DNA from: Streptomyces durmitorensis
Lineage (GTDB): Bacteria > Actinomycetota > Actinomycetes > Streptomycetales > Streptomycetaceae
Assembly (NCBI RefSeq): GCF_023498005.1
Contig: NZ_CP097289.1
Span: forward strand, 1,302,001 to 1,366,000
Length of the DNA: 64,000 nt
Direction of reading: 5' to 3'
The position numbers and the translations under genes were made by a program. The notes beneath the pieces were generated by a model. It saw nothing but the letters and a program-made list of their open reading frames with translations. It did no database searches and was not told where the DNA came from. Positions 42,884 through 59,557 of the stretch are shown here, in pieces. The stretch's first letter is position 1, and each line of letters opens with the position of its first letter.

Positions 42884-42939
42884 GCCGTCGACGCTACGGA
42901 GGGCGACCGCCACCGGACATCTGCCGACGGGAGTCGGCC

Positions 42940-42959
42940 GCTACTCCCTGGGGAGTAGC
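42940..42959. promoter_or_regulatory. palindrome GCTACTCCC-TG-GGGAGTAGC
   Basis: Perfect 9-bp inverted repeat with a 2-bp centre, between the response regulator stop and the ABC ATPase start. The core GGGAGTA recurs twice in front of the kinase gene (45531-45562). A plausible binding site for the response regulator, driving the ABC genes; binding is inferred. Confidence 0.6.
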
Positions 42960-42970
42960 CACCCGCCGGG

Positions 42971-43645
42971 TCAGCCCTCGCCCGCGCGCACCAGGCCGGT
43001 CTCGTAGGCGAGCACCACCAACTGTGCCCTGTCCCGCGCCCCGAGCTTCGTCATCGCCCGGCTGACGTGCGTCTTCGCGGTGAGCGGCGACATGAGCAGG
43101 CGCGCGCCGATCTCGTCGTTCGCCAGGCCGTGGCCGACCAGTGCGAGCACCTCGCGCTCGCGGTCGGTCAGCGGATCGAGGAGCCTCATCGCCTCGGCCT
43201 CGGGCGCCTTGAGCCGGGCGAACTCCTCGATCACCCGCCGGGTGACACCGGGCGACAGGAGGCTCTGCCCGGCGGCGACGGTGCGGATCGCGGTGCGCAG
43301 GTCGTCCGGTTCGATGTCCTTCAGCAGGAAGCCCGCGGCCCCGGAGCGCAGCGCCTCGAAGACGTACTCGTCGGCCTCGAAGGTCGTCAGGACCAGGACG
43401 CGTACGGCATCGAGCGTGCGGTCGGCGACGATGCGGCGGGTGGCTTCGAGGCCGTCGGCACGCGGCATGCGGATGTCCATCAGGACGACGTCGGGGCGTG
43501 TGGTGCGGGTCAGCTCCACCGCCGCGACGCCGTCCGCCGCCTCGCCTACCACCGCCAGGTCGTCGGTGAGGTCGAGCAGGGCACGGAAGCCCGCGCGGAC
43601 GACGGTCTGATCGTCGGCAAGAAGCACCCTGATCCGCCCGCTCAC
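42971..43645 (-). CDS. NarL/LuxR-type response regulator
   Basis: 224-residue response regulator. Receiver domain residues 5-120 with acidic pair Asp11-Asp12 and phosphoacceptor Asp57 (VVLMDIRMP), then a LuxR-type helix-turn-helix at about 155-215 (LTDREREVLALVGHGLANDEI, SPLTAKTHVSRAM). GTG start with GAGGGGAGAG just upstream; translation begins MSGRIRVLLADDQ. Its cognate kinase is the gene at 44282, but 636 bp of repeats lie between the two, which is unusual because such pairs normally overlap. Downstream is the ABC-2 transporter it probably controls. Confidence 0.93.
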   Translation of the reverse strand: MSGRIRVLLADDQTVVRAGFRALLDLTDDLAVVGEAADGVAAVELTRTTRPDVVLMDIRMPRADGLEATRRIVADRTLDAVRVLVLTTFEADEYVFEALRSGAAGFLLKDIEPDDLRTAIRTVAAGQSLLSPGVTRRVIEEFARLKAPEAEAMRLLDPLTDREREVLALVGHGLANDEIGARLLMSPLTAKTHVSRAMTKLGARDRAQLVVLAYETGLVRAGEG

Positions 43646-44281
43646 GCGACTCTCCCCTCACTCCGGCCACTCACGCCGCCCACTCCTCACTCCGGCCACT
43701 CATGCCGCCCGCCCCTCGCCCCGCCCGCCCATGCCGGCCACTCCACGCCCCGCCGGCCCACGCGCGTCCCCTCTCGCCCCGCTCGCCCATGCCGGCCGCT
43801 CCTCACCCGGCCACCCATGCCGATCTCCCCTGGATCCCGCCGCTCACGCCGCCTGTCCCTCCTCGGCCTGCCCACCCCTGCCATCCACTCCTCACTCCGG
43901 CCACTCATGCCACCCGCCCCTCGCCCCGCTCGCCCATGCCGGCCTCCCCTCACCCGGCCACCCATGCCGATCTCCCCTGGATCCCGCCGCTCACGCCGCC
44001 TGTCCCTCCTCGGCCTGCCCACCCCTGCCATCCACTCCTCACTCCGGCCACTCATGCCACCCGCTCCTCGCCCCGCCCGCTCACACCATTCCCGCTCTGG
44101 ATCCGAACCGCCCACGCGCGTCCCCTCTCGACCCGCTCGCCCTACCGTTCGCTCCTCGGCTTGCCCACGCATGCCGTCCGCTCCTCAGACCACCCGCCTC
44201 ATGTCAGCCTCTCCTTGCCCCACCCGCTCGCGCCGATCCCCCTCGGCCCGCGCCCGTGCCGCCACTTCCCGCCCCAGCCAC
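43646..44281. repeat. degenerate tandem-repeat tract between kinase and regulator
   Basis: 636 bp of low-complexity, strongly strand-biased sequence (C/T-rich on plus). A 147-bp unit is duplicated in tandem: the stretch from 43804 is repeated from 43951, with at least 110 identical bases. Shorter variants of GCATGAGTGGCCGGAGTGAG (minus strand) recur throughout. On the minus strand these units read ATG/GTG-AGT-GGC-CGG, that is MSGR, as in the response regulator start, with purine-rich GGAG/GAGG motifs between. All frames are open by composition; no protein is supported. It looks like expansion of the kinase-regulator junction. Confidence 0.85.
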
Positions 44282-45496
44282 TCACGCCACCCCCTCCTCG
44301 ACAGGGATCACAGCACGCACCCGCCACCCGCCGCCGGACAGCGGGCCCGCTTCGAGGGTGCCGTCCACCGCTGTGGCCCGCTCCCGCATGCCGATCAGGC
44401 CGTACCCCTCTCCCGAGGCCGCAGCCGCGGTGCGCGGCGGTCCGTCGTCGGTGATCTCCACCGCGAGGCGGCCGCCCGCCGTGGCCACCGACACCGCCAC
44501 GTGTCGGGCGTCCGCATGCTTGATCACGTTGGTCAGCGCCTCCTGGACGATGCGGTACGCCGCCAACTCCACCAGCTGCGGCAGCTCACGGCCACCGGTG
44601 GCCGTGTCGGTGTCGGTGTCGGTGTGCAGGGACACCTGTAGGCCCGTGCCGCGTACCCCCTCCACCAAGTCGTCGAGCTGGGCCAGGCGGGGCGCCGGGT
44701 CGACGGAGGCCACCCTGCGCCCCTCGCGCAGCACGCCCACCGTGGCCCGCAGCTCGCGCACCGCCTCCTTGCCCGAGGTACGCACCTGCCGCATCGCCGT
44801 GCGCGCCACCTCCGGCCTGCTGTCGAGCGCGTCCAGGGCGAGGCCCGCCTGCACGGTCATCGCCGACACGGTGTGGGCCACCACGTCGTGCAGTTCGCGC
44901 GCGATGCGTACCCTCTCCTGGTCGACCTTGCGCCGCGCCTCCCGCTCCCGGTCGGCCTCGGCACGCTCGGCCCGGTCGGCGTACTCCTTCATCAACTCCC
45001 GCCGTCCGCGCACCACTTCACCCAGGAGCAGCGGTACAAGGGGCCACAGCATCTCCAGGAGCGGGGCACCCTGGGGCTGCGCCACATCCTTGCCCGCGAT
45101 GACCGACACCACCCCCGAGACGAGGGCGGCGACCACGGCGGTGCGCAGCGTGCGGCGCCGGTCGCCCTGCGCCGCGAGGGCGTACAGCGCGACCATCACC
45201 GGCAGATTGAGCAGCTCCCCGATGTGCCCGTAGAGCGCCCAGCCCGCGCAGGCGGCCCCGGTGACGACGGTGACGGCGACCGGCCACCGGCTCCGCACCA
45301 GGAGCGCGCCGATCGACACGGCGTACAGGAGCCACGTCAGCCGGTCGGCCTGCCGGTGACCGGAGTCGTTGACCGCCGCGTCCAGGCCCGTGAGGAGCGC
45401 GACGACCGCGGCCACGGCCAGGTCCGTGAGCTGCGAGGGCAAGGGCCACGTGAGGCGCCGCTGCCAGGAGCGGGAGGTGGGGGTCACGGAACTCAC
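44282..45496 (-). CDS. sensor histidine kinase (NarL partner type)
   Basis: 404-residue kinase. The N-terminal half holds about five hydrophobic spans (residues 25-160) with almost no extracellular loops, an intramembrane-sensing layout. HisKA_3 dimerisation domain has phosphoacceptor His203 (RIARELHDVVAH); the ATPase domain has N-box ALTNVIKHADA and G1 ITDDGPP, ending GYGLIGMRERA. A microrepeat encodes TDTDTDT near residue 300. GTG at 45496 is the most likely start (VSSVTPTSRSWQRRL); the frame opens earlier but would cross the repeats at 45531-45562. Pairs with the response regulator at 42971. Confidence 0.88.
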   Translation of the reverse strand: MSSVTPTSRSWQRRLTWPLPSQLTDLAVAAVVALLTGLDAAVNDSGHRQADRLTWLLYAVSIGALLVRSRWPVAVTVVTGAACAGWALYGHIGELLNLPVMVALYALAAQGDRRRTLRTAVVAALVSGVVSVIAGKDVAQPQGAPLLEMLWPLVPLLLGEVVRGRRELMKEYADRAERAEADREREARRKVDQERVRIARELHDVVAHTVSAMTVQAGLALDALDSRPEVARTAMRQVRTSGKEAVRELRATVGVLREGRRVASVDPAPRLAQLDDLVEGVRGTGLQVSLHTDTDTDTATGGRELPQLVELAAYRIVQEALTNVIKHADARHVAVSVATAGGRLAVEITDDGPPRTAAAASGEGYGLIGMRERATAVDGTLEAGPLSGGGWRVRAVIPVEEGVA

Positions 45497-45530
45497 GATA
45501 GGAGCCGCGCACGAAGGGCGCGTACGACAG

Positions 45531-45562
45531 CGGGAGTACCCCGAGCTCGGGAGTACCCCGAG
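45531..45562. promoter_or_regulatory. two direct repeats upstream of kinase gene
   Basis: CGGGAGTACCCCGAG occurs twice (45531-45545 and 45548-45562), 17 bp apart. Each holds GGGAGTA, also found in the palindrome at 42940. They lie 35 bp upstream of the kinase start and suggest autoregulation by the cognate response regulator. Confidence 0.6.
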
Positions 45563-45608
45563 GCTCCCCTCAGCGGATCCCCCATATAACCCTGATTCCA
45601 ACCCTGAG

Positions 45609-46910: not shown

Positions 46911-47699
46911 TCAGCACGGCCTGCGCCACGTGTCCAGGTCCAGCTTCTTGCGCATCGAGGACAGGCCGAGGCGGCGCGCCTGGGCACAGAACTCCGAGTT
47001 GGGCACGGCGTACTCGACGTGCAGCACCGCCTTGCCCGCCTTGATGAAGGGGGTCAGCGACGCGCACTCGTCGTACTGGGCGCACTCCTCGTTGACGGCG
47101 AAGTCGAAGTCCTTCACGAGCTGCGGGATCTGCGGCAGGTCGTTCTTCAGGCCGACGGACATTCCGCGGTCGTGCGCGAGGCGGGCGACCATGCGGTTGA
47201 AGGCCAGTTGGTGGTGTGCCTTCAGGGGGAACCCGGTGCGGTCGAGGTAGCTGTCGAGAAGGTCGGGCTCGACCGCGTCGAACCCCTTGCGGCGGCACAT
47301 GTCGAAGCGCTCGGCGAGCAGCGGGCGCAGCACGTCGAGGCGCCGGATGTCGAGCCAGCGCTCCCCCTTCCAGCCGTTGGGGCGGCCGAGGACGGATGCG
47401 GGGTAGTCGTCGCTGTCCGGGCGGAAGGACTCCCAGGCACCGGCGTTGATGTAGCAGATGACGCGGCGCCCGTCGCGGTGCAGGCGGGCCACGTCGGACG
47501 CGCGGTTCTCGAAGCCGTCGATGTCGTAGACGGGGACGTTCACGCCCGGGTCGACGCGGCCGTCGAGCTGCCACTGCCACGTGGTGCCGGGACGGGGCCG
47601 CCACCGGTCCGAACTGCCGTCCTGCCGCTCCGCCGACGAGCAGCCGGCGAGCAGCAGGACGGTGGCAAGGAACAGGCCGAGGCGGCCGCGGTGCCTCAC
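46911..47699 (-). CDS. GH114-like endo-alpha-1,4-polygalactosaminidase lipoprotein
   Basis: 262-residue exported hydrolase. The lipobox LLAGC places the lipidated Cys at residue 20. The mature part is a GH114-type barrel: WQWQLDGRVD, VPVYDIDGFEN, RRVICYINAGAWESFRPD, and FDAVEPDLLDSY with the acidic catalytic region, then VNEECAQYDEC with the second acid. Family members (for example fungal Ega3, and the hydrolase part of PelA) cut alpha-1,4-linked galactosamine polymers. ATG overlaps the stop of the spherulin-4-like gene by 4 nt. Likely trims or processes the polymer made by the locus upstream. Confidence 0.85.
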   Translation of the reverse strand: MRHRGRLGLFLATVLLLAGCSSAERQDGSSDRWRPRPGTTWQWQLDGRVDPGVNVPVYDIDGFENRASDVARLHRDGRRVICYINAGAWESFRPDSDDYPASVLGRPNGWKGERWLDIRRLDVLRPLLAERFDMCRRKGFDAVEPDLLDSYLDRTGFPLKAHHQLAFNRMVARLAHDRGMSVGLKNDLPQIPQLVKDFDFAVNEECAQYDECASLTPFIKAGKAVLHVEYAVPNSEFCAQARRLGLSSMRKKLDLDTWRRPC

Positions 47700-48361
47700 G
47701 GCGTGCCTCCGGCCGTGGCCAGGGGCGGCGGTTGCGTCCAGGGGTTGGGCCCCGCGCCGGGCACCGCGCAGTGCACCCCCGCGCCCCGCCGCACGGCGGT
47801 GCGCCCCGCGAGGCGGGTCAGCGCGGGCGGGACTCCGTAGACGAGATGGCAGAAGTGCTCGGGGGGATGCCTGGCCGTCCAGGACGGGGCGGTGAACGAG
47901 CGCAGATACGTCGTCCAGTGCCCCTCGAACGTGACGAGCAGGTCGGCGGCGCGGGCGTACCCGGGCGCCGGATGCACGCCCGGGTTGAGGACCACCGTGT
48001 CGGCGCCCCTCTCCCGCGCCGAGCGGACCAGACGCCTGCAGTGCCGCAGCTCGCGGCGTCCTGGCGCGACCCGGTCGAAGAAGCAGCCGTCCACGCCGTA
48101 CCAGTCGCGGTGCCGGGCCAGGTCGTCGGTGACGGCGCCGAGCGGCCGCTCCCCGTACGCCGTGTCGACGTATCCCAGCACCCGCACCCCCGCATCGCGC
48201 AGGGTCCGCGAGGCGGCGGTGAACGCCGGGTCGGGGGCCGTGCCCGGACCGTCGGCGGCGTTCAGGACGATGCCGTACAGCTGGGGCGCGGCCGCCACGA
48301 GCGCCTCCCAGGCCGCGGGATCCGCCGCCGGGTGGACGTACAACGGCACCAGCAGGGTCAT
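47696..48361 (-). CDS. spherulin-4/GH135-like hydrolase without signal peptide
   Basis: 221-residue protein of the spherulin-4 family (LLVPLYVHPAADPAAWEAL at the start, VLGYVDTAYGERPLGAV, VDGCFFDRVAP and TFEGHWTTY; the Asp and Glu of the last two are the likely catalytic acids). The fungal relative Sph3 (GH135) is an endo-alpha-1,4-N-acetylgalactosaminidase needed for galactosaminogalactan production. No signal peptide is present even if the longest frame is used, so the enzyme seems cytoplasmic or leaderless-exported, unlike the GH114 neighbour. Overlaps both neighbours by 4 nt. Confidence 0.85.
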   Translation of the reverse strand: MTLLVPLYVHPAADPAAWEALVAAAPQLYGIVLNAADGPGTAPDPAFTAASRTLRDAGVRVLGYVDTAYGERPLGAVTDDLARHRDWYGVDGCFFDRVAPGRRELRHCRRLVRSARERGADTVVLNPGVHPAPGYARAADLLVTFEGHWTTYLRSFTAPSWTARHPPEHFCHLVYGVPPALTRLAGRTAVRRGAGVHCAVPGAGPNPWTQPPPLATAGGTP

Positions 48362-49320
48362 CGCGGGTCCCCCGCGGTGGGCGTGAGGCGCGGCGAGCTG
48401 TCGCCCGCGCCTGCCTGCCGCGTCCGTGGCGCGCCGTCGGCGCGCCACAGCGCGGTCACGGAGTCCCGCAGGGAGTGCGTCGGCGTCCAGCCCAACTCCC
48501 TTTCCGCGGCGCCGATGTCGGCGCACTGCCAGGGCACGGCCACGGATCGGCCCACCTTGCCGAGCGTTTCCTCCACGTGCCCGGTGAAGCCCGCCGCGCC
48601 GACCAGGCCGTGCACCAGGTCGCGCACCGGCACGGCACTGCCGCTGCCGATGTTGAGCAGGCGCGGCAGCCGCCCAGGCAGGGCGAGCGCGAGCGCGACG
48701 GCGTGCGCGACATCGCGTACGTCGACGAAGTCCCGGTAGGCGGACAGGTCACCGACCTGGACCCTGCCGTGCGGCATCCGGGTCACCGCACGGCCGAGCT
48801 CGGCGGTGAGCCGGCCGGGCAGTCCGGCCCGGGGAGCCCTGGGGCCCACCGGGTTCGTGACCCGCAGCACGAGCGCGTCGAGCTCCGTGTCGAGCACGGT
48901 GAGGGTGCCGGCCAGCTTCGTGGCTCCGTACGGGGCGACCGGGCGGGCGGGGGCGTCCTCCGCCGTCCGCTCGCCCATGCCGGTCGGCCCGTACTCGGCC
49001 GCCGAGCCGAGGTGCACCAGACGTGCCGCGGGCGCCGCCACCCGCAGGGCCTCGCAAAGAGCAGCGGGGCCACGGGAGTTGACCTCGGCGAGGGTCAGCG
49101 CGCTGCCGCCGACCGCGCCCACGCAGTTGACCACGGCGTCGGGCTCGGCCCTGCCCAGCTGCTCGGCCAGTGCGGCGGGCGTCATGGCGGCGAGGTCGAC
49201 CCGGAGGTCGTCCTCGTGGGCGCGGCCGCCGCGGAGCAGCCGCACGCCCGGCAGGGCGTGCAGCCGCTCGGCGATGTGCCCGCCCAGGTATCCGGTGGAG
49301 CCCAGGACGAGAATGCGCAC
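48358..49320 (-). CDS. NAD-dependent epimerase/dehydratase
   Basis: 320-residue extended short-chain dehydrogenase acting on a nucleotide sugar. N-terminal Rossmann motif VLGSTGYLGGHIAERL, catalytic region HLGSAAEYGP and YGATKLAG (Tyr and Lys of YxxxK). The proline-rich tail is not conserved. It lies 7 bp downstream of the nucleotidyltransferase and overlaps the spherulin-4-like gene. By analogy with the UDP-glucose/GlcNAc 4-epimerase of fungal GAG clusters it may supply the galacto-configured donor; the exact sugar is not readable from sequence. Confidence 0.86.
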   Translation of the reverse strand: MRILVLGSTGYLGGHIAERLHALPGVRLLRGGRAHEDDLRVDLAAMTPAALAEQLGRAEPDAVVNCVGAVGGSALTLAEVNSRGPAALCEALRVAAPAARLVHLGSAAEYGPTGMGERTAEDAPARPVAPYGATKLAGTLTVLDTELDALVLRVTNPVGPRAPRAGLPGRLTAELGRAVTRMPHGRVQVGDLSAYRDFVDVRDVAHAVALALALPGRLPRLLNIGSGSAVPVRDLVHGLVGAAGFTGHVEETLGKVGRSVAVPWQCADIGAAERELGWTPTHSLRDSVTALWRADGAPRTRQAGAGDSSPRLTPTAGDPR

Positions 49321-49327
49321 GGCCTTG

Positions 49328-50041
49328 TCACGCTCCCTTGAGGAGAAGGGAGCGGTGCGTGGTGAACTCCGCGTTCGCGCGGTCGTAGTCGTCCGGGCGT
49401 CCGATGTCGAGCCAGTAGCCGTCGAACGCGTAGGCGTGCGGCGGGGTCTCGGACTTCAGGAGGTCGAGCACGAGCTCGTCGAAACCGAGCGGCAGGCCCG
49501 GGGTGTAGGAGGCGAGCGTGTCGCGCGAGAGCCCGTACACCCCCATGGAGACGCGGTAGTCCACGCTCGGCTTCTCCGTGAAGGCGACCACGCGGTCCGA
49601 CTCGGTGGTGAGCACCCCGAAGTCGATGCGCACCTCACGTGCGTACGTCGCGATGGTCAGCGGCGCCCCGGACGTGCTGTGGCTGTTCAGGACGTCCGCG
49701 TAGTCGAGGTCGGTGAGGATGTCGCCGTTCATCACGAGGAAGTGCTCGGGCAGCCGGTCCATCATCGTCAGGAGCGGGCCCATGGTGCCCAGCGGGCTCT
49801 CCTCCGTGGAGTAGCCCACGCGCAGGCCCCAGCGTGCGCCGTTGCCGACGTAGGCACGGATGATGTGGCCGAGGTGGCCGATCGCGATGGTGCAGCTGGT
49901 GAAGCCGGCGGTCGCCAGCTGGCGCAGCACGATCTCCAGGATCGCGTGCTGGTCGCCGATGGGAACCAGCGGCTTGGGCAGCGCGGTGGTGTACGGCCGG
50001 AGCCGGACACCCTTGCCTCCGGCAAGAATGACTGCGTGCAT
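49328..50041 (-). CDS. sugar-1-phosphate nucleotidyltransferase
   Basis: 237-residue NTP-transferase that makes an NDP-sugar from a sugar 1-phosphate. Signature VILAGGKGVRLRPYTTALPKPLVPI with the catalytic Arg and Lys (split here by no gap of importance), metal-binding MNGDILTDLD, FTEKP and the closing YWLDIGRPDDYDRANAEF. Short form without a C-terminal beta-helix. Start ATG is canonical; GGGGAGACGAACC precedes it. Clustered with an epimerase and a 4,6-dehydratase-like gene, it probably supplies an activated sugar for the exopolysaccharide locus. Confidence 0.9.
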   Translation of the reverse strand: MHAVILAGGKGVRLRPYTTALPKPLVPIGDQHAILEIVLRQLATAGFTSCTIAIGHLGHIIRAYVGNGARWGLRVGYSTEESPLGTMGPLLTMMDRLPEHFLVMNGDILTDLDYADVLNSHSTSGAPLTIATYAREVRIDFGVLTTESDRVVAFTEKPSVDYRVSMGVYGLSRDTLASYTPGLPLGFDELVLDLLKSETPPHAYAFDGYWLDIGRPDDYDRANAEFTTHRSLLLKGA

Positions 50042-50157
50042 GGTTCGTCTCCCCTGTGAGTGACCCGAAGTGGTCAAGTGGCCTGATGCGCAGATCGGTT
50101 GACGGTCGGGCGTTCGGCGGTCGGGCGGTCGGCGTTCGGCGTTCGGTCAGGGATGGC

Positions 50158-51159
50158 TCAGATGTTGTAGATGTCCGTCTTGTAGCGGGCCAGGTTGGCC
50201 GGGTCGCGGAAGAACTCGACGGTGCGCGCGAGGCCCTGCTCCAGGTCGTGTCCCGGTGCCCAGCCGGTGGCCGCGCGCAGCCGGCTCGCGTCGGCGACCA
50301 GGCGCATCACCTCGGAAGCCGCGGGGCGGATGCGCTGCTCGTCCTCGCTCACGTCGAGGTCGGCCTCCATCACCTTGCCTATGAGCCGCACCAGGTCACC
50401 GACGGAGATCTCGCCGCCGGTGCCCGCGTTGAAGGTGCGGCCCACGACGGCGTCGGCGGGTGCGGTGCCGACGGCGATGAAGGCCTGCGCGGTGTCCGCG
50501 ACGAAGGTGAAGTCGCGGGTGGGCCGCAGGTCGCCGAGAGTGATCTCCCGTGACCCCGAGGCCACTTGACCGATGACGGTCGGGATGACGGCCCGCATCG
50601 ACTGACGCGGACCGAAGGTGTTGAAGGGGCGCAGGGTGACCACGGGCGTCTCGAAACTCGCGTGGTAGCTGTCGGCGAGCCGGTCGCCGCCCGCCTTCGA
50701 AGCGGCGTACGGGGACTGGGTGTTGATGGGGTGGTCCTCGGTGATCGGGACGGTCTGCGCGGTGCCGTACGTCTCGCTGGTGGAGGTGTGCACCAGGCGC
50801 GGGATCTCCAAGTGGCGTACGGCTTCCAGGACATTGAGCGTGCCGGTCACGTTCGTGTCCACGTAGCTGTGCGGGGCCTGGTAGGAGTACGGGATCGCGA
50901 TGAGTGCGGCCAGGTGGTAGACCGTCTCGGCGCCGGTGACCAGGCCGCGGACCGAGCCCGGGTCGCGTACGTCGCCCAGGACGATCTCGACCTCGGCGAG
51001 CACCTCGGGCGCGAGCGTCTCCAGCCAGCCGTAGGAGGAGAAGGAGTTGTACTGCGCCATCGCGCGGACCCGGTGGCCCGACGCGACGAGCGCCTCGGTG
51101 AGGTGCGAGCCGATGAAGCCTTCGGCTCCGGTGACGGCGACGAGTGGTGCGGATGCCAT
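50158..51159 (-). CDS. NDP-sugar 4,6-dehydratase-like SDR
   Basis: 333-residue extended SDR. Rossmann motif VTGAEGFIGSHLTEAL, the family-typical RAMAQYNSFSSYGWLE, active-site HTSTSETYG and YAASKAGGD (YxxxK), and RPFNTFGPRQS. The layout matches bacterial LegB/GDP-mannose-dehydratase-like enzymes that act on GDP- or UDP-sugars; the particular substrate is not evident. It lies 116 bp upstream of the nucleotidyltransferase and 102 bp downstream of the membrane protein, all on one strand. Confidence 0.88.
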   Translation of the reverse strand: MASAPLVAVTGAEGFIGSHLTEALVASGHRVRAMAQYNSFSSYGWLETLAPEVLAEVEIVLGDVRDPGSVRGLVTGAETVYHLAALIAIPYSYQAPHSYVDTNVTGTLNVLEAVRHLEIPRLVHTSTSETYGTAQTVPITEDHPINTQSPYAASKAGGDRLADSYHASFETPVVTLRPFNTFGPRQSMRAVIPTVIGQVASGSREITLGDLRPTRDFTFVADTAQAFIAVGTAPADAVVGRTFNAGTGGEISVGDLVRLIGKVMEADLDVSEDEQRIRPAASEVMRLVADASRLRAATGWAPGHDLEQGLARTVEFFRDPANLARYKTDIYNI

Positions 51160-51261
51160 GAGTGCTCCTGATGACTGATCACGTGACGGTGATGGTGATG
51201 GAGGTGTAGGTGGAGGTGGTGCGCTGCGCGGCCTGGCCCGAGTGGTGTGGCGCGGGCCCGC

Positions 51262-52704
51262 TCAGGCGTGCGCCGTTGGCCGACCCAAGCGGTGGACGGC
51301 GACGGCGAGGAGCGCCAGGACGGCGGCGGTACAGCCGATGAGTTGCGCGGTGGGCACCGAGACGGTGCCGGTGAGCGGGAGCGCCGTGGCGGTGGCCGCG
51401 GCGGCAAGGCAGGGCGCGGCGGACGGCCAGGCCGCGCCGAACGCCTGGAGGAGCAGGGCGATCCACAGCACGGCGCCGAGAAGCAGGAGCCGGGCCGCGC
51501 TCGCACCGACGAGTACGGCGCCCAGGGCGAGCGGCAGGAGATAGGCCGCGCCGCACACGGCGAGCGCACGCGCGGCGCGCAACCGGAAGCCCCGGGGAGT
51601 GGTCGAGGCGTGCAGTGCGGCCACGGCGAGACCGCGGTAGCGGTAGAGAAGCCACTCGGCGGGGCCCATGCTCAGGGTCAGCACGATGACGGCGTACGGC
51701 TCCTGCTGTCCCGCCACCGCGGTCAGCGTCCCGGCCGCGAGACCGAACAGGCCGTACGGAAGCGAGCCCACCAGGGGCGGTACGGGTCCCGGCGCGGGGG
51801 TCGCCCGAAGCGCCGAGCGCAGTGCGTGGGCGGCGGCCGCCGTCGCCAGCAGCACGGTGAGCAGCGGCAGTCCGGTCCGCAGGAGCTGCGGCGGCTGCCA
51901 CCACGGCTCGGCGGCCGCGGCCAGCACGACCGGGAGGAGCGCCGCCGCGAGGATCTTCTCGCGGCCGAGCACGAGCAGCAGCCCGGCCGCTGCGAGATAG
52001 CAGGACTGCCCGACGGCGAACAGGGCGGCGGCTCCCGGCCCCGCGACCAGCAGGCCGGTGACCGACGCGGCCACGACGCCCAGCGGCGCACCGCGCAGCA
52101 GGGTGCGCCCGGCCTCGTGCCGCCCGGCCGCGAGGCGGCTGTACGCCCGGTGGCTCAGCGCCTGGGACCAGGCCCAGGACACCAGGGCTGCGGCGATCAG
52201 CCCGTACAGCCCCGAGGCCGAGGAGCCCCACGCGCCCTGCGCCAGTACATAGGCCGTACCCGGAAGCGCGAAGAGCAGCCCGCGCAGGGCGCAGCGCAGA
52301 TGGTCGGGCCGCCAGGGGTCGGGCGGCACAGGCGGCTTCGGATGGCTGCGCGGCACCCTCCGGAAGACGGCGTCGGCCAGCGAGAACAGATCGGGGTGCC
52401 CATACGTCTCCTGGATCCGGTCGCCGGTCAGGCCCTGCGACTCCAGGAGCGCGGCGACTTCGTAGGGGTGGACGGCCGCGCCCGCGTCGTCGGCGAGTTC
52501 GGCGGCAAGGCGGTCGACGGGGTCGTCGGCGCGGGCGGGGCGCAGCGCGACGCCCGTGCGGATGCGGGGACGGCCGTCGTCGGAGGCGGCGCGGGGCGGC
52601 CGTGCCAGACGCAGGGCGAGGGTGTCGTCCGCGCCGAAGGCGTCGCCGTTCTCCGTGCCGCGGGGGTTCCCGCCGCGCGGCCTGAGAGGGAGCGGTCCGC
52701 TCAT
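51262..52704 (-). CDS. polytopic membrane protein of the exopolysaccharide locus
   Basis: 480-residue protein. Residues 1-140 are soluble (LAAELADDAGAAVHPYEVAALL, TGDRIQETYGHPDLFSLADAVFRR, read with gaps) and 145-475 contain about 10-12 hydrophobic spans rich in Ala, Leu and Gly. I do not recognise a family; it is not obviously PelG or Wzx. Its ATG overlaps the stop of the PelF-like glycosyltransferase gene by 4 nt, so the two are translated together. The most likely job is polymer or precursor translocation or membrane docking of the glycosyltransferase; this is inference. Confidence 0.68.
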   Translation of the reverse strand: MSGPLPLRPRGGNPRGTENGDAFGADDTLALRLARPPRAASDDGRPRIRTGVALRPARADDPVDRLAAELADDAGAAVHPYEVAALLESQGLTGDRIQETYGHPDLFSLADAVFRRVPRSHPKPPVPPDPWRPDHLRCALRGLLFALPGTAYVLAQGAWGSSASGLYGLIAAALVSWAWSQALSHRAYSRLAAGRHEAGRTLLRGAPLGVVAASVTGLLVAGPGAAALFAVGQSCYLAAAGLLLVLGREKILAAALLPVVLAAAAEPWWQPPQLLRTGLPLLTVLLATAAAAHALRSALRATPAPGPVPPLVGSLPYGLFGLAAGTLTAVAGQQEPYAVIVLTLSMGPAEWLLYRYRGLAVAALHASTTPRGFRLRAARALAVCGAAYLLPLALGAVLVGASAARLLLLGAVLWIALLLQAFGAAWPSAAPCLAAAATATALPLTGTVSVPTAQLIGCTAAVLALLAVAVHRLGRPTAHA

Positions 52705-54239
52705 CCCGCCACCTCGTCCGAGAGGTGCTGACTCATCAACTCAGCCTCGGCTGGCGCCTGTTGACCGCGTGTGGCCAACTCCTCGTAGATCGAGCGGAAC
52801 GCGTCCACCGTCTGCCGGAGCGTGAACTGCTCGATCACCCGAAGGCGGGCCGCCTCGCCCATCGCGGCGCGGCGCCGGGGGTCGCGGAGCAGTTCGACGA
52901 CGGACCGCGCCATGGCCTCCGGGGCGCGCGGCGGCACCACGAGGCCGGTGGGGCCCACGGCCTCCCGCACCCCGCCGACGTCGGTGGAGACCGTGGCGCG
53001 ACCGCAGGACATCGCCTCGATCAGGGTGAACGGGAAGCCCTCGCTGATGCTGGACAGCATCACCACGTTGCCCGCGGAGTAGGCGTCCTTGATGTGCTCG
53101 ACGCGGCCCTCAAAGACCACCGCGTCACCGTGACCGAGCTCGGCGGCCAGCGCCTCGCAGCGCTCGCGGTAGGCCTCGCCACCGCGCGGGGTGCCGCCGA
53201 ACAGCCGGAGCCTGGCGTCCGGTATCTCCTGCCTGACCAGGGCGAAGCAGCGGATCAGGGTCTCCAGGTCCTTGATCGGGTCGACGCGGCCCGCCCAGCT
53301 CAGGGTGGGGCTCTGCGGCTCGGGGCCCGCGGGCGGGAAGGCCTCGGGGTCCACGCCGTTGTAGACGGTGCGGATGAGGGACGGCCGCGCGCCGCCGCGC
53401 TCCTCCCAGAGGCGGTTGTAGCGGTTGCCCGGGGTGATCAGGGAGGCCTGGCGGTACGTCTCCTCGGCGAGCAACCGGAAGAAGCCGAGCAGCAGGGCCT
53501 TCACGGGCCAGCTGTACGGGCCCGTGCGGTAGCCGAGGTAGCGCTCACGCAGATACACGCCGTGCTCGGTCAACAGCAGTGGGACGCCATGGAGTTGACG
53601 TCCTATCAGACCGGGCAGGGCCGCGATGCCGCCGCTGACCGCGTGTGCGACGCCGTGCTCGGGCGGCCGGGCGGCGAGCGGCCGCAGCGCGTGTTCGAGC
53701 AGGCCGGTGGCGGTGACCGCGTCGTGCAGCGTCGGCCGCGCCTCGGCGGTCGCGCGCCCGGGGACATTCCATACGGAGGTCAGGACGTGCACCGCGCGGT
53801 CGGTGCGCAGCGCCGGTGACAGGGCGCCGTCGCGGGCGTGCCGGGCGAGGTCGTGGAGCGCGGGGGCGAAGCCGTCCTCGGCGGCCGGGTCGAGCAGTGC
53901 GGTGAGGAACTGTTCGTAGGAGCCGAGGAGTTGACGCCGACGTCGGCCGCGCGGGGCGTGCCCGGCGGGGGTCGGTCCCCACATGGGCAGGCAGACGGGC
54001 TCGTCGACGTGCGGCGGGAGGTCCCAGGCGAGGCTCTCGCTGCCGGTGCCGGTGACGGCGAGGACGCCGAAGTCGATGTCGGGCATGCCGCGCACGAGTT
54101 GGTCGCACCAGACGCTGACACCACCGTGGCTGTGCGGGTAGGTGCCTTCGGTCAGCAGGGTGACGCGGGTCCTTGCGGGGCGGGGCGACGGCATGGGGAA
54201 GGGTGCCGGTATCGGCACGGGCGAGGGCGAGGTGGACAT
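52701..54239 (-). CDS. PelF-like GT4 glycosyltransferase (DUF3492)
   Basis: 512-residue cytoplasmic GT-B glycosyltransferase. After a Pro/Ser-rich start, residues about 25-290 match the DUF3492 N-domain of PelF (VTLLTEGTYPHSHGGVSVWCDQLV with a gap; LLTEHGVYLRER; ITPGNRYNRLWEERGG). Residues 300-500 are the GT4 C-domain (VYNGVDPEAFPP, SWAGRVDPIKDLETLI, ISEGFPFTLIEAMSCGRATVSTDVGGVREAV with gaps, containing the E-x7-E donor motif). PelF polymerises an N-acetylhexosamine polymer of the Pel/GalNAc type. It is coupled to the membrane protein and follows the CE18 gene after a terminator. Confidence 0.88.
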   Translation of the reverse strand: MSTSPSPVPIPAPFPMPSPRPARTRVTLLTEGTYPHSHGGVSVWCDQLVRGMPDIDFGVLAVTGTGSESLAWDLPPHVDEPVCLPMWGPTPAGHAPRGRRRRQLLGSYEQFLTALLDPAAEDGFAPALHDLARHARDGALSPALRTDRAVHVLTSVWNVPGRATAEARPTLHDAVTATGLLEHALRPLAARPPEHGVAHAVSGGIAALPGLIGRQLHGVPLLLTEHGVYLRERYLGYRTGPYSWPVKALLLGFFRLLAEETYRQASLITPGNRYNRLWEERGGARPSLIRTVYNGVDPEAFPPAGPEPQSPTLSWAGRVDPIKDLETLIRCFALVRQEIPDARLRLFGGTPRGGEAYRERCEALAAELGHGDAVVFEGRVEHIKDAYSAGNVVMLSSISEGFPFTLIEAMSCGRATVSTDVGGVREAVGPTGLVVPPRAPEAMARSVVELLRDPRRRAAMGEAARLRVIEQFTLRQTVDAFRSIYEELATRGQQAPAEAELMSQHLSDEVAG

Positions 54240-54435
54240 GGTGGGGCTCCGCGGGTGAGATACGAACGCGAGGGAGCCGACGGCAGCGCCCCGCCCCGGC
54301 GTGGACCGGGGTGCGGCGAGTTCCGTGAACGGCGGGGTGCGGGACGTACTGGCGCGGGGGGATGGTCGTGCGGTGTGGGCCCCTGGGCGACGGGGGCTGT
54401 GTGCGGCGGCAGGGGCGTGCCGCGCGAGGCGTGGT

Positions 54436-54473
54436 CCCGGAGGCCGGCCGGGAGGGGCCGGCCGGCCTCCGGG
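54436..54473. terminator. strong hairpin terminator after CE18-like gene
   Basis: CCCGGAGGCCGGCCG pairs perfectly over 15 bp with CGGCCGGCCTCCGGG around an 8-nt loop, 14 bp after the CE18-like stop. The remainder of the gap (54240-54435) must hold the promoter of the glycosyltransferase gene; nothing else is recognisable in it. Confidence 0.82.
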
Positions 54474-54486
54474 TGCGACCGGAAGG

Positions 54487-56646
54487 TCAGCGCCGGGTGG
54501 GCAGCGCGCGTGGCGTGTGGCCGTCGGTGCCTGGCTTTACGTATCGGGTGACCCCGGACGGGACGGGCAATTCCTTGGCCGCCTTCGGGACGTCGGCCTG
54601 CTCGGCCGCCGCCTTGCCCGCCGTGAGGGCGGTCGGCAGCTTGAGCGTGACCCGGCTCTGGAGGAGCGACGGGGATGCCCAGCCGGAGGTTCTTCCGGCG
54701 TAAGCCGATCCGAACGGGTCGGTTCCCAGGAGGAGTTGCTGCACGGTACCGGTGGGCATGGTGGCACGGGCGGCCACACCTGACGGGGCCTGGACCGTCA
54801 CCGTGCCGCCGATCCGGTAGGCGGTGACGCGGCCCGCCTTGACGGCCGTGTCCCAGGCCGCGCGGGAGCGCAGCTCGCCGCCGATGTCGGCCATCCGCAG
54901 GTTGACCACGGGGGCGTTGTCCGCGAACAGCGCGCCGTACGCGTCCAGGACGGAGCCGAGCACGGGGTACGCGATGCGGTCCTCGGCGAGGTTCGACTGG
55001 TGGATGAAGTGCGGCCGGGGGTCGTTCGCCAGGGCGTGCCCGAGCGCGATCGTCGACTCGACCGGCACGATGTGGTCCTGGTAGCCGGTGGTGGTGTCGA
55101 GAGGGCTCTCCAAGCAGGTGGCCACGGAGGAGTTCTCGCAGACGCCGCTGCCGCCGTCCGCCTTGCGGGTGTAGATCCAGTTGTACTCGTCTACCTGCTC
55201 GCTGGCGCGGCCCGCGTTGTAGAAGACGTTCATCGGGTAGCGGGGCACGGTCAGGGCGGCGCCCACCTGGCGCTGCCCTCTGTCCCGGGAGTTGTCCGAG
55301 CCGAGCCAGCTCACGCCGTTGTCCCGCAGAGCCGTGCTCAGGTTCGGGTTGTCGTCGGGCTGCTGGGGAAGCACCTTGAGCCCGGAGTGCTCGCCGGTGA
55401 CCAACTCGCCGTTCACGAGCGGGAGTCCGGCGCGCTGGCCCCAGTTGCGGTTGTCGGAGATCTGCTGGGAGATCTCGGTACGGGAGACGTAGCGGGTGCT
55501 GCCGTCCGCGTTCTTCGCGCAGGTCCACGGCACGGTGCTGACGTCCTGGACGCAGCCGAGGAAGGGGTGGTTGTAGGTGTGGTTGATCCAGCGGTGCTCG
55601 CTCCGGTCGGCGATCAGCCGGTCCGCCAGCGGGTCCGCGCCGCCGTTCTCCTCGCGGAAGAGCTCGCTGCCACCGCCGTTGAAGGCCATGTCGAGCGGGA
55701 ACTTGCGCCCCTTGGACCACTGGGCCGCGTAGGCCGCGTCGTCCGGCGTCATCCGGATCGGGTCGGGAGTGCCCTGGCCCGGCGGGCAGTCCACGTCGCC
55801 CGGTGTGCAGTTGAGTTCGCTGTCCCAGCGGTCGTCGGCGCCGAAGACGTCGTCGACGTGCACGGCGAAGTAGTTGCGGGAGGAGCCGAGTTGGACGCCC
55901 TGGGTCATCCAGTCGACGATGCCGCGGGCGAGCAGCCGGAACTGCTGCTGATGCTGGTTGTAGACGAAGGTCACCACCAGCTCGCGGCGCCCGTCGTGGC
56001 GGTACTCGCCCACGAGCGAGCCGCGGCCGGAGGCGCCGGGGATCGGCGCGTCCACGTAGCTCGTGAAGTCGGCGCCCGGCGCCGGCTTGGACAGGAAGCC
56101 GTAGCTCTCGCTCGCCGCGGGCGAGTTGTCCTCGAAGGGCACCTGCCCCGCGAGGTAGCCGAAGGGACCGCTCTTGCCCGACGCGGTCACCTGGGCCCGC
56201 ACCCCGTCGAGCGATCCGCTGAACTCCGGTGTCTGCAGGCCTGCTTCGGGCCTGGCGTAGGTGTAGGCGTCCACTTGCGGGATGGCGTAGGTCTGCTCGT
56301 AGGCGGCCAGGGCGGCCATCTCGGCGGATCCGGCGCCGAACGGATTGTCGTTGGGCAGCACGACGGCCTGGAACTTGGCGCGGGCCCTGCCGTCCACGCT
56401 GTCCGCGAGGAACGCGGCGTCGATCACAGGACGTCCGCTCTGCCGCAGGTCGACGGTGGTGTACGGCGTTCCCTGGCCGTCGAGTTCGGCGGTGAGCGCG
56501 GCGGTGGCAGGGCCTCCGTCGGTCACCACCAGGACGCGCAGGTCGATGCGTGGCAGCTCGGCGGCCGAAGCCGGAGTGCCGGGCAGCGAGAGCGCGAGAA
56601 GCAGAGCGCCGGCGCCGAGAGCCGCCGCTCGCGCGGTGTGATTCAT
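54487..56646 (-). CDS. secreted CE18/Agd3-like polysaccharide deacetylase
   Basis: 719-residue exported protein. Signal peptide residues 1-28 (core AALGAGALLLALSLPG, cleavage after ASA). Residues about 30-245 are an N-terminal region with a CBM- or flavodoxin-like pattern (DLRVLVVTDGGPATAALTAEL). The deacetylase domain follows with metal motif HVDDVFG (Asp265, Asp266) and the H-x3-H pair His356/His360 in NHTYNHPFLG, then IHQSNLAED. This is the arrangement of fungal Agd3, founding member of CE18, which deacetylates galactosaminogalactan. ATG at 56646 chosen because a clean signal peptide follows; GGAGGGG lies upstream. It heads the locus and has its own terminator. Confidence 0.83.
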   Translation of the reverse strand: MNHTARAAALGAGALLLALSLPGTPASAAELPRIDLRVLVVTDGGPATAALTAELDGQGTPYTTVDLRQSGRPVIDAAFLADSVDGRARAKFQAVVLPNDNPFGAGSAEMAALAAYEQTYAIPQVDAYTYARPEAGLQTPEFSGSLDGVRAQVTASGKSGPFGYLAGQVPFEDNSPAASESYGFLSKPAPGADFTSYVDAPIPGASGRGSLVGEYRHDGRRELVVTFVYNQHQQQFRLLARGIVDWMTQGVQLGSSRNYFAVHVDDVFGADDRWDSELNCTPGDVDCPPGQGTPDPIRMTPDDAAYAAQWSKGRKFPLDMAFNGGGSELFREENGGADPLADRLIADRSEHRWINHTYNHPFLGCVQDVSTVPWTCAKNADGSTRYVSRTEISQQISDNRNWGQRAGLPLVNGELVTGEHSGLKVLPQQPDDNPNLSTALRDNGVSWLGSDNSRDRGQRQVGAALTVPRYPMNVFYNAGRASEQVDEYNWIYTRKADGGSGVCENSSVATCLESPLDTTTGYQDHIVPVESTIALGHALANDPRPHFIHQSNLAEDRIAYPVLGSVLDAYGALFADNAPVVNLRMADIGGELRSRAAWDTAVKAGRVTAYRIGGTVTVQAPSGVAARATMPTGTVQQLLLGTDPFGSAYAGRTSGWASPSLLQSRVTLKLPTALTAGKAAAEQADVPKAAKELPVPSGVTRYVKPGTDGHTPRALPTRR

Positions 56647-57565: not shown

Positions 57566-59557
57566 ATGAGCACATCGCAACGGCGGTCGGCCACGGAGTC
57601 CGGGCGGGTGGCCCTTGACCAGGCCGAAGCCGTCATCGTCGACCAGTACACCCGCCTCGTACGCCTCGCCTACCTCACGCTCCCCCACACCCTCAGCAGG
57701 CACCAGCGGGTTCTCGTCGCCCATTCGCTGGTACAGCGCGCCCTGCCCGGCTTCCGCATAGGACGGGCCACACCCCGGGTGCCCGCGCAGCGGGGCAGGC
57801 CCGACCCCGCGGTGGCGAGCGTGCGAGCGCGCGTCGTTCGCTCGGCGCTGGCCCACGACCGCCGCCCGCGCGGCTGGCCGGGTCTCCTGCCGCCTCCCCG
57901 CACGCTGCGCCCCACGCTCCCGGTGGTCTGGGGGCTGCGTCTCTTCCCGCGCGCCGGTGGCGGCGAGGAGATCGCCCTTGGGCAGGTCCTCTCCGAGGTC
58001 CCCGCACCCGCCCGTGCGGCCTTCGTGCTGCTCCAGCTGGAAGGCCTGTCCCGCTCCGAGGTCGTCGAGCTGCTCACCGCCGCCGATGTGCCCGAGCCGG
58101 AGCACGCGCTGCGCACCGCCTGCGACGTGGAGGCGGCGGCGGGCGGGGCGATCGCGGGCGAGGCGACACAAACGCTCCTGCGTTCGCGGGAGTTCGACGC
58201 CTGTTCCGTACAGACCCGTCCGACCGATCTGCTGCGCCGCAGACGCCGGTACCAGCTCGCCTGGGTCACCGCGGGCATCGTCGCCCTCGCTGGTGCGGTG
58301 CTGCTGACCGGCATCTGGGCCACGCCCCCGGCCGAGCCCTCCCGCACTGCCGGCATCCGCCCCGCGATCAGCCCCGCCCAGTTGCTCCGCACCCCGGGCG
58401 ACACCTGGGCCGACACCTCACGCGTGGACTTCACCGCCTGGCCCGCACGCGGCGCACGTACCGGCGACGACGAGCTGATCAACCGAGCGCTCGCCACGTG
58501 GACCGACCCGCCACGCGGCACCAGGGTCGGCGTCGCGAAGGCCACCACCGCCGAACCGCCGCCCAGGACCACCCAGTTGCTGTACGCGGGTGCCGTCGGC
58601 CGGGAGGCGGTCGTGCTGTTCCACGACGGCCGGCGCGTCGTCCGCTACGGCGAACCGCTCTCGTCGCGGGGCGCGGCAGCCGCGTCCCTGGACATCTCCC
58701 GCTCCGACGAGGCCGACGTGACCACGGCGGCCGCGCTCGTCCTCAGCCGCGAGGCGGGCAAGATCCGCTATCTGACCGCCCCTTGGATCGCCGAGGCGCA
58801 GACGCGCGACCTGCTGACCCCCAACTCCCCCGGCCGTCCGCTCGACGTGTCGGACGAGGGCGTCACCGATGCCGTCGGCCAGCCGCCGGGCAAGGGAGCG
58901 TGCGACAGCCTGCCGGTCATGCAGCTGCGCTCCTCCAGCAAGATCGTGGAGAAGCACGCCTTCCTCGTCACGGACCTCGGCGACCTGACTCCCACGCATC
59001 TCAGCTACACGCCCCTGCCCGGCACCGGAGCCCCGCCCCGGCAGCCCCGCGAGGCCACCAGCAGCACGGCACTGCGGAGTTGGGCCCGCACCGCGTGCCA
59101 GCTCCCCGAGATGCGGGGCGGCGGCGTGCGGTCCGTCAACCAGTGGGACTTCGCCGAGCAGGACCTTCCCGAGCAGGGCGGCCGAGCGGTGTGGTCCTGC
59201 ACCCGTGCCTCCACCTGGCGCGGCCCCGGCGACGTCCTTGTGCAGTTCCGCACGTCCACGGCGTCCGCCACCGCCCCGGCGAAGGTCGTCGGGCAGGCAC
59301 GCTCGACCGCTGCCTGCAGCCGGTTCGGCCAGCACATCGTGGCCAGTACCCCCTGGACGGCGGGCTCCGGGCGCCACTACCTCCTCGCCGCGGGCAGTCG
59401 CGAGGTCACCGACATCGAGGTGACCGGTGAGGTCGAGGAGACCGAGCGAGGGCGCACACTGGCCGTCAAGGCTCCCAAGGACCCCGGCGTGAGTGTGCGG
59501 GCACGCCTGACCGACGGTGAGACCCTGGACGAGGTCGGCTCGCGCCCCGCGCGCTAG
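57566..59557 (+). CDS. membrane-tethered sigma-like protein
   Basis: 663 residues. The cytoplasmic part (1-225) has a degenerate sigma region 2 pattern (AVIVDQYTRLVRLAYLTLP) and a region-4-like helix-turn-helix (VPAPARAAFVLLQLEGLSRSEVVELL with a gap). One membrane span lies at residues 231-251. The extracellular part of about 410 residues has no recognised domain and contains several cysteines (GACDSLP, ARTACQLPEM, VWSCTRAS, TAACSRFG) likely in disulfides. GGAAGG precedes the ATG by about 11 nt. It could be a non-canonical sigma factor or an inactive derivative acting as membrane receptor. Layout parallels the sigma-CAP fusion at 31998. Confidence 0.78.
   Translation: MSTSQRRSATESGRVALDQAEAVIVDQYTRLVRLAYLTLPHTLSRHQRVLVAHSLVQRALPGFRIGRATPRVPAQRGRPDPAVASVRARVVRSALAHDRRPRGWPGLLPPPRTLRPTLPVVWGLRLFPRAGGGEEIALGQVLSEVPAPARAAFVLLQLEGLSRSEVVELLTAADVPEPEHALRTACDVEAAAGGAIAGEATQTLLRSREFDACSVQTRPTDLLRRRRRYQLAWVTAGIVALAGAVLLTGIWATPPAEPSRTAGIRPAISPAQLLRTPGDTWADTSRVDFTAWPARGARTGDDELINRALATWTDPPRGTRVGVAKATTAEPPPRTTQLLYAGAVGREAVVLFHDGRRVVRYGEPLSSRGAAAASLDISRSDEADVTTAAALVLSREAGKIRYLTAPWIAEAQTRDLLTPNSPGRPLDVSDEGVTDAVGQPPGKGACDSLPVMQLRSSSKIVEKHAFLVTDLGDLTPTHLSYTPLPGTGAPPRQPREATSSTALRSWARTACQLPEMRGGGVRSVNQWDFAEQDLPEQGGRAVWSCTRASTWRGPGDVLVQFRTSTASATAPAKVVGQARSTAACSRFGQHIVASTPWTAGSGRHYLLAAGSREVTDIEVTGEVEETERGRTLAVKAPKDPGVSVRARLTDGETLDEVGSRPAR

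Follow-up and report, generated by a model that had tools for sequence, protein, structure and literature searches.

The window analysed here is a 64,000-nt stretch of the Streptomyces durmitorensis genome (C1:1302001-1366000; genome size 9.86 Mb), and coordinates are positions within it unless a contig or fetched locus is named. It contains eight open reading frames (ORFs) on the minus strand at 46911-56646, in which a first-pass annotation had seen a bacterial counterpart of the fungal galactosaminogalactan (GAG) gene set. This eight-gene, one-strand set was confirmed by its ORFs, by G-C content at third codon positions (GC3) and by family scans, for which the eight proteins were compared with Pfam and NCBIfam. 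The ORFs stood head to tail, all frames were open, and GC3 ranged from 0.89 to 0.96, which is coding-type and streptomycete-like. Transcription proceeds in the order AGD, PelF, TM, DEH, NTP, EPI, SPH, GH114:

54487..56646, minus strand: AGD, Agd3/CE18-like polysaccharide deacetylase (ORF; profile match to Agd3 6nwz; conserved motifs)
52701..54239, minus strand: PelF-type GT4 glycosyltransferase (DUF3492 plus GT4), predicted cytosolic polymerase (PF11997; NCBIfam PelF)
51262..52704, minus strand: TM, polytopic membrane protein, candidate exporter (hydropathy; N-terminal domain by hhalign)
50158..51159, minus strand: DEH, LegB-like NAD-dependent sugar-nucleotide 4,6-dehydratase with TSTSETYG (TIGR04180 near its cut-off; motif)
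49328..50041, minus strand: NTP, sugar-1-phosphate nucleotidyltransferase of 237 aa (PF00483)
48358..49320, minus strand: EPI, extended short-chain dehydrogenase/reductase (SDR), by profile closest to RMD (PF01370; 2pk3; G[SC]xxEYG)
47696..48361, minus strand: SPH, spherulin-4 (GH135-like) protein with no visible leader (PF12138; alignment to Sph3 5c5g/5d6t)
46911..47699, minus strand: GH114, lipobox-bearing member of the Ega3 endo-alpha-1,4-galactosaminidase family (PF03537; alignment to Ega3 6oj1)

Stop-to-start gaps from AGD to GH114 were 247, -4, 102, 116, 7, -4 and -4 bp; because of the 4-bp overlaps at three junctions, PelF-TM and EPI-SPH-GH114 appear to be translationally coupled.

The relationship to the GAG gene set was borne out, in that Agd3-like, PelF-like, spherulin-4 and GH114 members were all found. 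Sequence and profile comparisons with Agd3 and Ega3 returned matches to both, with the catalytic Asp/Glu pair of GH114 and the CM1 motif of AGD aligned. AGD (719 aa if translated from the ATG at 56646; a GTG at 56748 would give a longer protein) matched no Pfam or NCBIfam family, and a single-sequence search of PDB chains gave no match. A profile was needed to establish the relationship with CE18: built from 18 rows, it reached Agd3 (PDB 6nwz) with E = 1.3e-19, in three aligned stretches (i-Evalues 3e-13, 0.33 and 0.011). The best of these spanned 26-264 of the 6nwz chain, from the N-terminal domain (CBM87 region) through CM1. The metal motif consisted of D265-D266 (CM1) and H356/H360 (CM2, HxxxH), accompanied by R469 and by H549 (CM4). 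CM1 and CM4 were aligned to Agd3, the latter in the weak stretch with an i-Evalue of 0.011; CM2 lay outside the aligned stretches, and R469 was equated with Agd3 R613 (CM3) by position only. The hydrophobic N-terminus of AGD was read as a putative Sec-type leader, by which the protein would be secreted.

Conservation of these residues was surveyed in 161 distinct AGD sequences, after rows that covered less than 60% of the query, or less than 40% in the case of loci L188-L223, had been left out. D265, D266, H356, H360 and H549 were all retained in the 153 distinct sequences that had PelF in the fetched stretch, while R469 was present in the window and in 141 of the 153. Metal ligands were lost in all four AGD copies that had wide flanks and no PelF (L046, L047, L048 and L161); four further copies without PelF, from stretches that were short or cut, kept them. 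An intact deacetylase motif therefore appears to go together with operon linkage. The solitary copies, without PelF in 20 kb, were located at L046:9489-11501, L047:9495-11612, L048:9007-11061 and L161:9064-11319, with metal Asp and His replaced; they are probably non-catalytic paralogues, and perhaps sugar-binding proteins.

The assignments of PelF and GH114 were direct. PelF matched PF11997 (202.8 bits) and exceeded the NCBIfam PelF equivalog cut-off (170.6 bits against 100); the first Glu of the GT4 E-x7-E motif was found in 167 of 168 PelF rows and the second also in 167 of 168, with one gap. GH114 matched PF03537 (276.6 bits) and Ega3 (6oj1, E = 2.1e-50), and in addition to family membership it had the catalytic residues, since D146 and E204 aligned with D189 and E247 of Ega3 (equated by one constant offset; the Ega3 residue names follow the available part of a review). 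Both residues occurred in 90 of 90 GH114 rows from operons of the window's architecture (type A, below); two GH114-like rows from another architecture (type D) had no Glu at 204 in that alignment. A lipobox-like string was present in 78 of 108 GH114 relatives, with starts chosen by rule.

SPH belonged to the spherulin-4 family (PF12138, 116.9 bits) and matched Sph3 (5c5g/5d6t) with E about 4e-13. D96 and E146 aligned with Sph3 D166 and E222, and R97 stood at Sph3 E167. Across 122 SPH rows (including the window, and with some genomes fetched twice), the putative catalytic acids of Sph3 were incompletely reproduced: Asp166 was found in 122 rows, Glu222 in 121 and Glu167 in none, its place being taken by R (66 rows), Q (54), C (1) or G (1). 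SPH also had no visible leader; the sole upstream extension of its frame (to 48526) overlaps EPI and contains no hydrophobic stretch, and for this reason, together with the 4-bp overlap with EPI, the start at 48361 is supported. Where the start was taken as the nearest upstream start codon, the first barrel strand began about 3 residues from it in 81 of 122 rows. The earlier claim of a spherulin-4/GH135-like hydrolase was thus upheld as to family, and a role as a secreted hydrolase is unproven, there being neither a visible leader nor Glu167; the missing Glu167 is no proof of inactivity, and the retained Asp/Glu pair may still act. The protein was commonly associated with PelF. In a class sample of 236 genomes, spherulin-4 occurred in 18 genomes and PelF-type matches in 25; 25 of 29 spherulin-4 places lay within 10 kb of a PelF-type place (paired by eye), the other four being in G317, G484, G314:C174 and G173:C13.

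TM matched no Pfam or NCBIfam family. Hydropathy indicated a strongly hydrophobic part following a conserved N-terminal domain (approximately residues 57-124), and this domain recurred at the genome's other PelF locus (hhalign probability 97.9). The earlier statement that no PelG could be recognised still stands: TM had no profile similarity to two PelG sequences (hhalign probability 0.1), and the best PelG match (PF16933) in the host genome, at C1:7396163 and far from the operon, scored 21.5 bits against a cut-off of 29. General scans of the eight proteins returned no PelD or PelE family, no search aimed at PelD or PelE having been made.

The three remaining genes suggest a nucleotide 6-deoxy sugar when taken together. 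DEH carried TSTSETYG, which we take to be the pattern of 4,6-dehydratases with a catalytic Glu, as did all 121 DEH rows of the LegB-like kind. NTP (PF00483, 129.2 bits) resembled guanylyl- and uridylyltransferases below any NCBIfam cut-off, the best model being that of mannose-1-phosphate guanylyltransferase (133.1 bits against 440). EPI (PF01370, 115.8 bits; G[SC]xxEYG in 133 of 133 rows) had been described as an NAD-dependent epimerase, a description that its closest relatives did not favour. A profile of 14 EPI rows placed the RMD structure 2pk3, a GDP-6-deoxy-D-lyxo-4-hexulose reductase, first (125.2 bits, E = 3.3e-35), followed by a generic SDR (110.7 bits), GDP-6-deoxy-D-mannose reductase (107.5 bits) and UDP-glucose 4-epimerases (95.1 bits at most; best E = 5e-26). 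The single EPI sequence ranked generic and GalE-type entries above RMD, an order that the profile reversed. EPI thus seems to resemble a 4-keto-6-deoxy-sugar reductase more than it resembles GalE, which would have been closest had EPI taken the role of Uge3. In the host genome a DEH paralogue (53% identical; C1:3312230-3313165, L176:10201-11163) adjoins a MurG-like gene, named by eye, and paralogues of 52-56% identity were observed in other genomes of the genus, often within a longer open frame.

From these families and catalytic motifs, and from the conserved linkage described below, all established by sequence comparison, it is likely that the operon directs the synthesis, export and processing of a cationic amino-sugar polymer, partly deacetylated and belonging to the GAG/Pel class. 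Its secretion, synthesis and export, and the order of steps, would be as follows. NTP, DEH and EPI, acting in the cytosol, would provide a nucleotide sugar dedicated to this pathway; PelF would polymerise it, with alpha-1,4 linkage by family; TM would carry the chain out, replacing PelE/PelG; secreted AGD would remove acetyl groups from the chain; the GH114 lipoprotein would cut deacetylated stretches outside the cell; and SPH would remain cytosolic alongside PelF and TM, where it might clear stalled chains or set their size. The sugar is probably a C6-altered amino sugar, for example 6-deoxy-N-acetylhexosamine, a point held less firmly than the polymer class. A deacetylase and two hydrolase-family proteins, with an ABC-2-type transporter and two-component system downstream of the operon (41118-45601), might also constitute a locus for the degradation of fungal GAG or bacterial Pel in soil. 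This is very improbable, given that the operon also has a synthase (PelF), enzymes for making nucleotide sugars and a polytopic membrane protein, that no catabolic gene is among the eight, and that SPH has no visible leader.

AGD matches were found in 89 of 199 genomes of the genus, in 59 of 121 genomes (8 of 17 genera) of a family sample, and in 18 of 296 genomes of a class sample. Forty loci of 20 kb each were fetched from the genus, picked from the listed AGD matches and not at random. Most (25 of 40) were type A, with AGD-PelF-TM-DEH-NTP-EPI-SPH in order and GH114 last where it was seen. Another 12 were type B, in which AGD-PelF-TM occurred without DEH, NTP or EPI; 11 of these had SPH and/or GH114, and neither was seen in L036. 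Three loci had AGD alone. Since the order recurs across fetched loci, the grouping of these genes is not due to chance. Types A and B occurred together in some genomes (e.g., G067, G080 and G159). A scan of named genomes, confined to the best 80 of 496 relatives and so leaning to type A and close relatives, produced 51 cases with just the eight genes in order, 14 with the first seven, 9 that ended at a contig edge and 6 that were otherwise arranged; the best named relative among these 80 was Streptomyces sp. WAC 01529, with an AGD 88% identical. DEH and NTP were the best conserved proteins of the operon (their identity across the 25 type A loci was 82-95%). Among 48 genus genomes with DEH of at least 82% identity, 43 had AGD no more than 10 kb away on the same contig, as paired by eye; of the five exceptions, two were fetched and had kept PelF-TM-DEH-NTP-EPI-SPH without AGD. 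In the type A operons L178-L181, AGD was not adjoining (G095, G125) or was present only in pieces (G016, G069), and G016, G095 and G125 have another AGD elsewhere in the genome. The survey of synteny that had been proposed therefore supported the locus: order was kept in 25 of 40 genus loci and type A order recurred in dozens of Streptomyces, with shuffled versions in other actinobacterial families, as in L155.

A PF11997 match of the lower-scoring kind was present in all 21 same-genus genomes among the matches listed (three of them split; the host locus was the one opened). In the host genome this second PelF locus (type C) had the order PelF-TM-EPI-SPH at approximately C1:3555148-3559985 (L177:5148-9985). 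It adjoins a MoeZ-like gene, named by eye, and its SPH has no Glu at the positions of Sph3 E167 and E222. The presence of at least one PelF-type match in each of those 21 genomes, the resemblance of GH114 to a cell-retained lipoprotein, and low-level galactosamine polymers from Streptomyces cell walls, mentioned in the available text of PMC7229062, are consistent with a cell-wall or spore-coat glycan or a glycoconjugate, and not a free matrix exopolysaccharide, as the product. We regard this as unlikely: AGD appears to be secreted, AGD genes are accessory, being present in 89 of 199 genomes, and a scan of ten flanking ORFs, like that of the eight genes themselves, revealed no anchoring ligase or sporulation gene.

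A fourth architecture (type D) was found in families f37 and f46, at L156 and L210-L219, where AGD, PelF, TM, NTP and EPI occurred together without a LegB-like DEH. In L156 and L210 a nucleotide-sugar 6-dehydrogenase (TIGR03026, 292 and 306 bits) and another SDR adjoined these genes, on the opposite strand in the case of L210, and L217 had a similar ORF by eye. L209 (f106) was placed in type D by rule; it has SPH, and no 6-dehydrogenase was identified there. SPH was detected by tblastn in 2 of 12 type D loci; in L156, which has no SPH, its place is taken by a protein that weakly resembles GH114 and shows no visible leader. Types A, B and C, as well as two loci from other families, have the N-terminal domain of TM. 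The searches for families around G495 and G314 yielded a single genome apiece and so contributed no lineages.

The nucleotidyltransferase and dehydratase, which had been treated as loose additions to the GAG-like set, proved instead to be parts of a conserved module that separates type A from type B. In the PelF tree within the family, type A formed a clade of 36 rows (support 94/85) and type B a clade of 14 rows (98/93); PelF of L160, L155 and L156 fell outside the A clade, L156 being labelled A solely for a 30% SDR. Very few positions in the family were conserved in both types and differed between them: 4 of 225 in PelF, 1 of 219 in AGD, 1 of 108 in GH114, 0 of 55 in SPH and 1 of 94 in TM. 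In GH114 the residue directly after the catalytic Asp (147) is L in the window and Asn in Ega3. Among distinct sequences accompanied by the sugar module it was L in 80, V in 1 and T in 2 (83 of 83); without the module it was N in 15, Q in 2 and L in 1, so that N/Q occurred in 17 of 18. L155 (f41) and L160, which stand outside the main A clade, follow this pattern. PelF residue 271 was set aside, because it may mark ancestry only. Almost all distinct type A sequences (110 of 111, the other having a gap) had G there, and 11 of 12 type D sequences had H; C, V or L stood at this position in 25 of the 26 members of a group to which the type C locus and two distant PelF loci also belong. Nine sequences on contigs ending after PelF (7 G, 1 C, 1 V) are left out of these counts.

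Since the dehydratase and nucleotidyltransferase belong to a conserved module, a plain N-acetylgalactosamine (GalNAc) polymer is not the sole reading of the locus. It has serious claims nonetheless, falling somewhat short of an even chance: the operon would be a plain GAG/Pel counterpart making alpha-1,4-linked GalNAc/galactosamine (GalN), and NTP, DEH and EPI would add a minor side sugar or serve another pathway. GalNAc/GalN polymers are the substrates of Agd3 and Ega3 (PMC7229062 and PMC10485009, available text), galactosamine polymers and an endogalactosaminidase are reported from Streptomyces (PMC7229062, likewise), and type B operons, having no sugar module, must use housekeeping donors. 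Against it stand the position of the module inside the operon, the superior conservation of DEH and NTP, and the association of the module with the PelF clade and with the residue beside the catalytic Asp of GH114.

Within the reading of a GAG/Pel-class polymer, these associations may tentatively be attributed to a shared synthesis core with exchangeable C6 modules, a proposal that we consider doubtful at present. Type A would use a 4,6-dehydratase (giving a 6-deoxy amino sugar), type D a 6-dehydrogenase and SDR, and type B neither, and the active site of secreted GH114 would have adapted to the altered sugar. Several observations weigh against the proposed GAG/Pel-class reading, its sugar included, or parts of it. 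DEH scored 458.3 bits with TIGR04180 (LegB), just under the cut-off of 475. LegB feeds an aminotransferase, and no such partner is among the eight genes. The idea of EPI as a pure RMD reductase is weakened by types C and D, which have EPI without a LegB-like DEH; because of this, EPI cannot simply be the reductase of the DEH product. The GH114 pattern at residue 147 is broken by locus L049 and may reflect few events, since the deep branching of the GH114 tree is not resolved and a single change could already satisfy its starred branches. AGD residue 547, which within the family is F in type A and Y in type B, was rejected as a substrate marker because L155 and L160 carry the module and have Y. 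TM is a candidate exporter by its position only. Lastly, SPH was not seen in most type D loci, nor in six type B loci of one genus (L189-L193 and L195).

The general idea of a bacterial GAG-like operon is not new, having been published by Bamford et al. in 2020 (PMC7229062). The available text of that paper reports Agd3 homologues in 45 bacterial species, with agd3 in or near carbohydrate operons in 30 of the 35 species of its tree. Every operon identified there encodes a polytopic membrane protein along with a cytoplasmic glycosyltransferase; GH114 is present with high consistency, and some Actinobacteria have spherulin-4 as well; a link is drawn to Streptomyces galactosamine polymers. The window shares all of these components, together with the CE18 deacetylase, and it differs from the same text in its module of 4,6-dehydratase, nucleotidyltransferase and reductase, its spherulin without visible leader and its module-defined architectures, although Fig. 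8c or the supplements of that paper may depict such a locus. Compared with the Aspergillus fumigatus GAG cluster (uge3, sph3, ega3, agd3, gtb3), relatives of agd3, ega3 and sph3 are present along with a glycosyltransferase and a membrane part. The latter two are separate genes here, whereas Gtb3 is described as one transmembrane glycosyltransferase (PMC4817252, available text); moreover, the spherulin has no visible leader and has Glu167 replaced, an RMD-like SDR stands in place of Uge3, and the dehydratase and nucleotidyltransferase are extra. The Gram-positive pelDEADAFG operon, as presented in the available text of PMC7112168, is similar in having PelF, a deacetylase and an expected GalNAc-type polymer; unlike it, the window has no PelG match nearby, its membrane protein is unrelated by profile, and its deacetylase is CE18-like.

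No Streptomyces PelF operon that includes a 4,6-dehydratase module was met in the literature searched, which lay largely outside subscription journals and included the available text of PMC7229062, PMC10485009, PMC7112168, PMC13254593 and PMC4817252. The same applies to the division into types A, B, C and D, the association of the module with a GH114 signature, the spherulin without Glu167 and the decay of solitary deacetylases. The operon is genuine and conserved and belongs to a known kind, of which this variant may make a chemically different polymer. Were the reading of exchangeable C6 modules true, these bacteria would make a whole family of cationic matrix polymers, each chemically distinct, and not one copy of GAG; sister operons, being distinguished by a single sugar module, lead one to expect a difference in polymer chemistry that could be tested. 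Streptomyces loci are tractable in the laboratory, for a polymer class known mainly from pathogens. TM points to a membrane protein family not recognised before, which could take the place of PelE/PelG, and the spherulin-4 protein, probably cytosolic, is a frequent partner of PelF-type synthases.

A 663-aa ORF on the plus strand at 57566-59557, which adjoins AGD, had no Pfam family and no match in the 40 related loci; the neighbours up1, up2 and dn1 were matched in 0 of 40, and a histidine kinase was matched weakly in a few. With the tested neighbours matched weakly or not at all, the operon appears to be an accessory element whose placement varies.

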